Shown here piece by piece: positions 38,052-43,811 of a stretch of 64,000 bases of DNA (its first letter is position 1; every line of letters starts with the position of its first letter). Source of the DNA: Halobacterium jilantaiense (GTDB lineage: Archaea > Halobacteriota > Halobacteria > Halobacteriales > Halobacteriaceae); NCBI RefSeq assembly GCF_900110535.1, contig NZ_FOJA01000001.1, positions 1,585,393 through 1,649,392 on the forward strand. Reading direction: 5' to 3'. The notes beneath the pieces were generated by a model. That model was given only the letters and a program-made list of their open reading frames with translations, was not told the DNA's origin and made no database searches. Both the position numbers and the translations under genes were made by a program.

Positions 38052-38087
38052 GTAAGTGCAATCCAGTTAACGCCTGGACTCGACCAC
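38052..38087 (-). other. 23S pre-rRNA processing stem, 3' arm
   Basis: GTAAGTGCAATCCAG (38052-38066) and CTGGACTCGACCAC (38074-38087) are exactly complementary to 41222-41236 and 41201-41214 across the 23S gene. The unpaired nucleotides between the two helices are the place expected for the bulge-helix-bulge cut by the archaeal splicing endonuclease. Confidence 0.8.
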
Positions 38088-38092
38088 GTATG

Positions 38093-41017
<2,925 letters not shown>

Positions 41018-41023
41018 TTGGTT

Positions 41024-41209
41024 GCCGACTGCAAAGCAGTCGGCGAATATGGTACTCAACCACACGAAGTGGTCGAGATGTTGGCTGCGATGCAGCCAAC
41101 GACGATGAATGTCGACTGTAGAACAGTCGACGATGCTCACCACGCAATGGGTGAGCGCTGTTGAGTCACGGATGTGACCAACAGTCGGTACTCGACCACG
41201 GTGGTCGAG
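41024..41209. repeat. Row of hairpins in the 23S leader
   Basis: Seven inverted repeats lie in a row between tRNA-Ala and 23S: 41024-41044 (GCCGACTG...CAGTCGGC), 41055-41077 (one mismatch), 41080-41100 (GTTGGCTGC...GCAGCCAAC), 41111-41131 (GTCGACTGT-AGA-ACAGTCGAC), 41135-41156, 41165-41178 and 41191-41209 (CTCGACCAC-G-GTGGTCGAG). The last uses the same bases as the 23S processing stem arm 41201-41214. Confidence 0.75.
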
Positions 41210-41236
41210 TCCAGTGAGCGCCTGGATTGCACTTAC
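41201..41236 (-). other. 23S pre-rRNA processing stem, 5' arm
   Basis: GTGGTCGAGTCCAG (41201-41214) and CTGGATTGCACTTAC (41222-41236) pair with 38074-38087 and 38052-38066. The helix brings both 23S ends together for excision from the primary transcript. Confidence 0.8.
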
Positions 41237-41317
41237 ACACGGTTGTCATCGCACGTCCCTTGGTGACAGGGAGCGTACATCGACCCTTCCCACCCGTGCT
41301 CTCGCAGGGCGGTGCAT

Positions 41318-41387
41318 CAGTCGTGTTCGGGAATCACCGTAACTTCGTCTCCCACTTAAGGGACACGGTTTGCGGTGACTCCCGAAC
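41318..41387 (-). promoter_or_regulatory. Spacer promoter-like element within a long hairpin
   Basis: The minus strand reads CCCTTAAGTGGGAG at about 41362-41349, like the boxes CCCTTAAGTAAT in the main rRNA promoters. It is framed by GTTCGGGAATCACCG (41318-41332) and CGGTGACTCCCGAAC (41373-41387), which can pair. Halobacterium rRNA operons are known to have an internal spacer promoter; this is the candidate. It would drive 23S and 5S only. Confidence 0.6.
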
Positions 41388-41391
41388 GGGA

Positions 41392-41463
41392 TGGACCCAC
41401 TGGGATTCGAACCCAGGGCATCCTCCTTGCAAAGGAGGCACTCTACCGCTGAGCTATGGGCCC
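41392..41463 (-). tRNA. tRNA-Ala, anticodon TGC (UGC)
   Basis: This 72-nt tRNA in the 16S-23S spacer has acceptor GGGCCCA/TGGGTCC, anticodon arm CCTCC-TTTGCAA-GGAGG and T-arm CTGGG-TTCGAAT-CCCAG; discriminator A. A tRNA-Ala in this place is standard for halobacterial rRNA operons. Confidence 0.98.
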
Positions 41464-41484
41464 ACCTCCCGATTGGGAGGAAGT

Positions 41485-41517
41485 GTTAGCCTTGATGGTT
41501 TGTAGGTGCCCAACTGG
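41485..41517 (-). other. 16S pre-rRNA processing stem, 3' arm
   Basis: GTTAGCCTTGATGGTTTG (41485-41502) and CCAACTGG (41510-41517) pair exactly with 43148-43165 and 43133-43140 across the 16S gene. The unpaired bases between the two helices mark the expected bulge-helix-bulge cut site. Confidence 0.8.
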
Positions 41518-41540
41518 GCACGACGGCGTCGTTCGGTGAG

Positions 41541-43041: not shown

Positions 43042-43300
43042 TTGCTGGGATGGTACCCAGCGACCAAGACTATCAAGTCTTGGTTTGGCGGGGACACGTA
43101 ATGTGTCCCTTGGCACACGACGGTCGTCGCGGCCAGTTGGATGTCACCAAACCATCAAGGCTAACATCAGATTCCATCTGTACGGCGGACCGCAGGGGTG
43201 GAATCCTCATTCCTTCGGACCTGAACGTAGCTCCCGGTGGGCTATAAACCCATCGGAACCAGTCCGGCCCGAGACGACGTTCGCATTTCCCCGGACGCCC
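43042..43300 (-). other. 16S leader with processing stem
   Basis: The external transcribed leader lies between the last promoter and 16S. It holds the 5' arm of the 16S processing helix (43133-43140 and 43148-43165) and local hairpins such as GGGACAC-GTAAT-GTGTCCC (43091-43109) and CAAGACT-ATC-AAGTCTTG (43063-43081). No gene is present. Confidence 0.75.
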
Positions 43301-43304
43301 CGTT

Positions 43305-43313
43305 ATTACTTAA
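43305..43313 (-). promoter_or_regulatory. rRNA promoter box, most downstream (fifth)
   Basis: The minus strand reads TTAAGTAAT in the context CGGTTCGATGCCCTTAAGTAATAACGGGGCG. It is the copy nearest 16S. The 108 nt that follow it (43310-43417 on the plus strand) are duplicated at 43561-43668. Confidence 0.8.
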
Positions 43314-43436
43314 GGGCATCGAACCGCGCTCGAAGCGAGCGAGGCAGACACCAACGAAGGCGTCGAGGACACGCGTTAGCCACCTGGAGAACCCAGGCAG
43401 CCTCATTGTCGTTCGCGTATCATCGAACGCCCCGTT

Positions 43437-43445
43437 ATTACTTAA
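43437..43445 (-). promoter_or_regulatory. rRNA promoter box, fourth
   Basis: TTAAGTAAT on the minus strand with the same flanks (GGTTCGATGCCC upstream, AACGGGGCGTTCGATGA downstream). It lies 132 nt upstream of the fifth box. Confidence 0.8.
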
Positions 43446-43554
43446 GGGCATCGAACCGAGCCCAGAGCGAATCTGGACCGGCCGTCGGAGGCATGCGTCG
43501 GCTGCCCGAAACCGGACAACCCCATTGTCGTTCGCATCCCACCGAAGTGCCCTG

Positions 43555-43564
43555 TTACACTTAA
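43555..43564 (-). promoter_or_regulatory. rRNA promoter box, third (variant)
   Basis: The box reads TTAAGTGTAA, a variant of TTAAGTAAT, with the upstream GGTTCGATGCCC conserved and AGGGCACTTCGG downstream. It starts a near-exact copy of the fifth promoter's upstream block, so the array grew by duplication. Confidence 0.75.
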
Positions 43565-43687
43565 GGGCATCGAACCGCGCTCGAAGCGAGCGAGGCAGAC
43601 ACCAACGAAGGCGTCGAGGACATGCATTAGCCACCTGGAGAACCCAGGCAGCCTCATTGTCGTTCGCATCTCATCGAACGCCCCGTT

Positions 43688-43696
43688 ATTACTTAA
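43688..43696 (-). promoter_or_regulatory. rRNA promoter box, second
   Basis: TTAAGTAAT on the minus strand, flanked by GGTTCGATGCCC and AACGGGGCGTTCGATGAGATGCGAACG. Downstream start-region sequence TTCGATGAGATGCGAACG is shared by most copies. Confidence 0.8.
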
Positions 43697-43811
43697 GGGC
43701 ATCGAACCGAGCCCGTGAAGGCCCGGGTCGAACGGGACGAGGGGAGCGTCAATCAGTGGCGTCGGGTACACCGAGCCACCTCACGTCGTTCGCATCTCAT
43801 CCGAGTGCCGG

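Follow-up and report, generated by a model that had tools for sequence, protein, structure and literature searches.

Matched palindromes in the inner arms of the haloarchaeal 23S rRNA processing stem and a possible hold-and-zip order of folding

Archaeal ribosome biogenesis poses the question of how the two arms of the 23S rRNA processing stem, which lie nearly 3 kb apart, come to meet and make the cut site without mispairing of the first arm in the meantime. In the rRNA operon of Halobacterium jilantaiense, a hairpin in the 23S leader draws on bases that are also part of the long-range stem. A search of the 2.95-Mb genome found one rRNA operon, located on the minus strand of the window (the whole stretch of 64,000 nucleotides analyzed here); all RNA sequences and pairings are given for the minus strand. 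The genes are arranged as follows.

43041-41569, minus strand: 16S rRNA gene
41389-41464, minus strand: tRNA-Ala(UGC) gene, the upstream boundary of the spacer (ARAGORN and Rfam)
38106-41021, minus strand: 23S rRNA gene (Rfam RF02540, 2878.7 bits)
37979-37858, minus strand: 5S rRNA gene, after which the operon has a tRNA-Cys gene

Compared with Rfam at the gathering threshold, the leader between tRNA-Ala and 23S matched no leader RNA family, and only rRNA and tRNA families were found. Upstream of the 16S gene, positions 43290-43760 of the minus strand carry at least four near-repeats (GGUUCGAUGCCCUUAAGU..GGGGCGUUCGAUGA) that resemble tandem rRNA promoters. The part of the spacer between tRNA-Ala and the bulge-helix-bulge (BHB), positions 41236-41380, contains a CCUUAAGUGGGAGACG stretch that recurs in other haloarchaeal spacers, together with a UGCACC...GGGAAGGG element that is present in spacers of other archaea too.

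The 23S processing stem

The leader and trailer strands flanking the 23S gene form an outer helix, a BHB and an inner helix that begins with a short clamp.

41222-41235, minus strand: leader strand of the outer processing helix (UAAGUGCAAUCCAG), 14 bp, read from the sequence
38053-38066, minus strand: trailer strand of the outer processing helix (CUGGAUUGCACUUA), paired with 41222-41235
41215-41221, minus strand: leader half of the BHB, core GCGC (41221-41218, 4 bp) and bulge UCA (41217-41215), from sequence and conservation
38067-38073, minus strand: trailer half of the BHB, core GCGU (38073-38070) and bulge UAA (38069-38067), from sequence and conservation
41210-41214, minus strand: inner clamp CUGGA, 5 bp with UCCAG at 38074-38078
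38074-38078, minus strand: inner clamp partner UCCAG, paired with CUGGA at 41210-41214

With a 4-bp core (41218-41221/38070-38073), 3-nt bulges on opposite strands and helices on both sides, this structure agrees with the definition of the archaeal 23S BHB, and judged by its sequence the stem is a textbook example. It resembles the EndA-cut stem of Haloferax volcanii in place, in the 4-bp core and the two opposite 3-nt bulges, in its flanking helices, and in being the one such stem around 23S. The inner helix runs for 14 bp from 41214/38074, CUGGA/UCCAG being followed by ACUCGACCAC/GUGGUCGAGU. The long-range pairing of 41201-41209 with 38079-38087 that the initial annotation had described can form, and the helix is longer than it had supposed (outer 14 bp, 4-bp core, inner 14 bp). 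A BHB was present at 23S in every haloarchaeal locus in which both flanks were located; in some loci the trailer was not located.

Cutting by EndA, ligation and a circular pre-23S are established in H. volcanii, and reports of them exist for H. salinarum (PMC7038931, PMC7714728). EndA cleavage and a circular pre-23S are likewise predicted for the window from its BHB. The factor that opens the circle is called uncharacterized in a 2021 review (PMC8339473). In bacterial rRNA operons, too, leader and trailer pair around the rRNA and make a cut site, according to PMC7038931, but RNase III cuts a plain double helix there, unlike the archaeal BHB.

Hairpins of the Halobacterium leader

Between tRNA-Ala and 23S, seven local hairpins (H1 to H7) follow the clamp, and an eighth lies in the trailer.

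41190-41210, minus strand: H1, leader palindrome ACUCGACCA-CCG-UGGUCGAGU, from sequence and energies, with a counterpart in most haloarchaeal genera
41158-41184, minus strand: H2, 11 bp, two compensated pairs, mean pair probability 0.99
41135-41156, minus strand: H3, 7 bp, one compensated pair, mean pair probability 0.98
41111-41131, minus strand: H4, 9 bp, five compensated pairs, mean pair probability 0.98, missing in H. salinarum
41080-41100, minus strand: H5, 9 bp, mean pair probability 1.00, reshaped to GUUGGC..GCCAAC in some species
41055-41077, minus strand: H6, CUCGACCAC-UUCGU-GUGGUUGAG, almost a copy of H1, both arms unchanged across 12 Halobacterium leaders
41024-41044, minus strand: H7, 9 bp, adjoining the 23S 5' end, three compensated pairs, mean pair probability 1.00
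38078-38100, minus strand: trailer palindrome ACUCACCAC-AUAC-GUGGUCGAGU, twin of H1, from sequence, energies and conservation

All seven leader hairpins proposed from the initial inspection were confirmed. The tRNA-Ala-23S spacer folds with a z-score of -10.4 relative to dinucleotide shuffles, none of 100 of which equals it, and the leader contains four hairpins of at least seven uninterrupted pairs, where shuffles average 0.29 such hairpins and never have more than 2. Among 12 distinct Halobacterium leaders, two-sided changes were found in H2, H3, H4 and H7 (2, 1, 5 and 3 pairs, respectively) with no broken pairs, so these are real RNA structures.

Leaders longer than 80 nt account for eight state changes on the 23S tree, and the inserts of long leaders fold beyond their shuffles in nearly all cases (z of -3.7 to -12.7; one weak, -1.6). 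We read H2 to H7 as a covarying, genus-specific array, a self-contained expansion of the leader tolerated because it is self-folding. The view of the seven-hairpin array as a conserved device was discarded on account of the short leader of most genera, the eight state changes and the absence of H4 from H. salinarum. Being lineage specific, H2 to H7 have no part in any general switch. In other genera (L064, L077, L081, L094, L116, L130 and L214) this site of the 23S leader is taken up by unrelated tandem hairpin arrays, apparently independent expansions. One Halobacterium genome contains a second, divergent 23S copy on a short contig (L055, G005:C7; 87% identity at the 5' end), with an unrelated leader and no trailer recognizable up to the contig end.

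H1, the hairpin nearest tRNA-Ala, stands apart from this array. As had been noticed, it shares bases with the processing helix, and the overlap is exact: 41201-41209 either pairs with trailer 38079-38087 or supplies both the 5' arm and the loop of H1, whose bounds are 41190-41210. The twin of H1 in the trailer, which lies no more than about 6 nt from the Rfam 23S 3' end, had been missed. The 5' arm of the leader palindrome can take as partner its own 3' arm or the 3' arm of the trailer palindrome, and the trailer arms behave likewise, so that the RNA forms two hairpins or else a single long helix. A kissing-loop start followed by an extended duplex, of the ColE1 or retroviral type, would call for complementary loops: UUC in the leader stands opposite GAA in the trailer in many genera, but not in Halobacterium, where the loops are CCG and AUAC. 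H6 can pair with H1 or with the trailer, its 5' arm being fully complementary to the trailer arm, and is a possible decoy partner for that arm. H1 is identical in H. bonnevillei, H. salinarum DSM 3754, CBA1126 and KA-4; since both H1 and H6 are invariant within Halobacterium, covariation within the genus is uninformative on either.

Matched palindromes across the haloarchaea

Most haloarchaea have a short leader between BHB and 23S, often of 30 to 60 nt, which retains one hairpin, the equivalent of H1, directly after the clamp. Typical leader hairpins are ACCCG-UUCC-CGGGU and ACUCG-UUCAU-CGAGU; a typical trailer twin, just before the clamp strand, is GACCCG-GAAA-CGGGUC. MAFFT alignments of these short arms gave no consensus in RNAalifold because loop lengths vary; instead, each sequence was tested on its own, with permutation of the helix columns. 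The pairing test covered 86 distinct haloarchaeal arm pairs from 57 genera at five inner-helix positions, or 430 cells. The long-range inner helix is paired in all 430, with two-sided changes at each of the five positions; slid registers gave 22 to 36%.

The same arms are also self-complementary far more often than permutation gives, under a scheme that preserves the pairing of leader with trailer. A local hairpin of at least 5 bp that uses the inner arm was found in the leader of 86% of the arm pairs, in the trailer of 79% and in both arms of 69%, versus 23%, 26% and 6% with permuted columns. If each arm is required to form a hairpin of 6 bp or more, the share is 49% observed versus 1% (maximum 2%) with permuted columns. 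Fold z-scores averaged by genus are -2.53 for the leader and -2.32 for the trailer in 41 genera. A prediction was set beforehand, namely z below -1.5 in each arm for the majority of unseen genera, and 25 loci were then fetched, of which two remained unscored as the BHB pattern missed their trailers; 16 genera were scorable. Their means are -1.63 (leader) and -1.91 (trailer), with values below -1.5 in 9 of 16 and 10 of 16 genera, respectively (7 in both arms, 4 in neither). The prediction held, with a thinner margin than in the first 41 genera.

According to the initial annotation, no switch would be needed if relatives kept the long-range helix but not the local hairpin. A minority of genera are of this kind: with the 5-bp threshold, 3 of the 57 (g22, g63 and g65) have the long helix and neither local hairpin. 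The hairpins are kept in most. By z-score, neither arm stands out in 2 of the first 41 genera and in 4 of the 16 held-out ones. As hairpins are missing in some genera while the long helix stays, a switch would be common and not indispensable, the long helix sufficing there.

Concerted substitution connects the two pairings. At position 6, the third arm base, 39 sequences have the quartet C/G/C/G over the four arms and 11 have U/A/U/A; mixed quartets are few. This base changed about five times on the 23S tree. In independent contrasts, the partner follows in about 5 of 5 cases for the long-range pair, in 4 of 4 for the trailer 5' arm and in 3 of 4 for the leader 3' arm, although local partner bases were taken from predicted folds, so that any partner present is complementary by construction; the test with permuted columns is free of this bias. 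In one lineage in the U state (L074), the leader 3' arm base is G, which leaves a G-U pair. A sign test on four to five contrasts gives p of 0.06 to 0.25, too few contrasts for significance. As far as comparison of sequences can tell, the same bases are maintained in evolution in two mutually exclusive pairings, with few independent changes.

Controls place this property at one stem in one clade. At 16 non-haloarchaeal 23S loci of the same phylum the z-scores are -0.10 (leader) and +0.22 (trailer), and the haloarchaeal 16S stem, subjected to the same test, gives -1.18 and -0.84, weaker than the 23S stem. Matched palindromes are thus a feature of haloarchaeal 23S and no general property of processing stems, and the idea that any processing stem would have palindromic arms was dismissed. 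The running text consulted on archaeal 23S processing contained no mention of palindromic inner arms or of a leader hairpin array; an earlier description in figures, in the older papers on Halobacterium rRNA operons or in the spacer study of Kjems and Garrett is possible.

Energetics and a possible order of folding

In calculations that apply to standard salt conditions, as against molar KCl, the long helix is favored over a four-way junction whose two hairpins stay closed in 65 of 65 cases, by 5 to 34 kcal/mol (median about 20) in a simple sum. A fuller model, computed for five Halobacterium species with the BHB, the whole leader and the trailer, puts the long helix ahead by 6 to 8 kcal/mol. 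Two-state energies as sole proof were set aside because of salt and protein effects. Since the long helix has the greater stability as soon as both arms are present, the hairpins are consistent with co-transcriptional holding structures that are later zipped.

In the fuller model, the BHB, the outer helix and the 5-bp clamp form while H1 and the trailer hairpin stay closed, so that H1 competes with the inner stem only and leaves the EndA site free. A role of H1 as a block to EndA cutting was rejected on these grounds. EndA can probably act on the stem with its hairpins closed, in which case zipping need not control the cut. Before the trailer is made, pairing of H1 with H6 may be slightly better than separate folding, by about 3 to 4 kcal/mol in the fuller model, and the full Halobacterium leader would accordingly have several nearly equal forms. 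The initial annotation had proposed that the leader folds locally first and switches after 23S is made, ordering rRNA maturation. That interpretation is partly supported: both of the exclusive pairings persist in most haloarchaeal genera while the sequence changes, and the long form is the stabler one when the trailer is there, but the processing site is not blocked by H1. A proposal close to it appears in PMC7038931, namely that upstream elements might keep the 23S stem from folding until they are removed, and work on H. volcanii described there hints at ordered processing of 16S and 23S.

The reading that we favor, at somewhat short of even odds, is that the inner 23S stem consists of two matched imperfect palindromes, the leader hairpin being held and later zipped into the long helix. 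The leader palindrome would fold into H1 at once on leaving RNA polymerase, and H1 would keep the leader arm folded during synthesis of about 2.9 kb of 23S. The trailer, once made, would likewise fold on itself into a matching hairpin. The outer helix, BHB core and 5-bp clamp would pair first and set the two hairpins side by side in a four-way junction, from which branch migration could zip both into one continuous helix below the EndA-cut BHB, with a possible benefit to 23S excision; H2 to H7 would not be required. With rather more reserve, it is tempting to assume that haloarchaea evolved this two-palindrome "hold and zip" device, which would encode in RNA the order of the first maturation step of large-subunit rRNA, and that H6 adds a competing partner in Halobacterium.

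Selection may instead have acted on the long helix alone, the palindromes being a by-product of inverted duplication or template switching kept by common descent. A single event of template switching copies an arm onto its complement. The universal long helix (100% of cells) and the loss of hairpins in some genera suit this explanation, as do the duplicated look of H1 and H6 and the repeated origin of tandem arrays at the same site, which would mean that hairpin-making mutation is active there. The enrichment, however, persists in most of 57 genera and through concerted substitutions, and with no bias in methanogens and other relatives and less in the 16S stem, mutation alone would need to be specific to locus and clade. 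We regard this origin as rather unlikely.

Two further explanations keep the hairpins functional at other stages. They might act after the cut, the extended helix forming first and the arms of the trimmed precursor 23S then refolding, separating and staying un-annealed. Each arm does fold alone, and the remnants adjoin the mature 23S ends, but the long helix is the stabler form while the arms are joined, and they would have to be cut and held apart, which makes a post-cut role improbable. Very unlikely, in our estimate, is that the four-way junction is what functions, cut at BHB and clamp with the hairpins closed and offering a ribosome assembly factor a binding platform. In Halobacterium, a fold only 6 to 8 kcal/mol above the best does accommodate the BHB, the clamp and the two hairpins together; the extended helix is nevertheless predicted to win in all of the cases computed, and the pairing beyond the clamp, needless for a junction alone, is the most conserved part.

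For the favored succession of held hairpins and zipped helix, the nearest known mechanism is the "ring to hairpin" zipping of yeast ITS2 during pre-60S assembly, in which, as PMC7504139 describes, early local pairing gives way to late long-range pairing. ITS2 is an internal spacer, is driven by proteins, works without BHB or splicing endonuclease and is unrelated by descent to the haloarchaeal flanking arms. By analogy, an ITS2-like switch in which both forms are used in sequence in vivo is a candidate in haloarchaea, where its presence stops short of all clade members, given the three genera named above and the exceptions by z-score. The conserved self-folding design of both arms provides a concrete cis-acting element that can be tested in an existing plasmid reporter.

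A self-complementary inner segment is likewise seen in the 16S processing stem of the window (41484-41532 and 43060-43180), where the trailer hairpin GUGCCCAGUUGGGCAC overlaps the BHB strand. A perfect palindrome, CCGAUCGG, makes up the inner 16S helix of many other haloarchaea.
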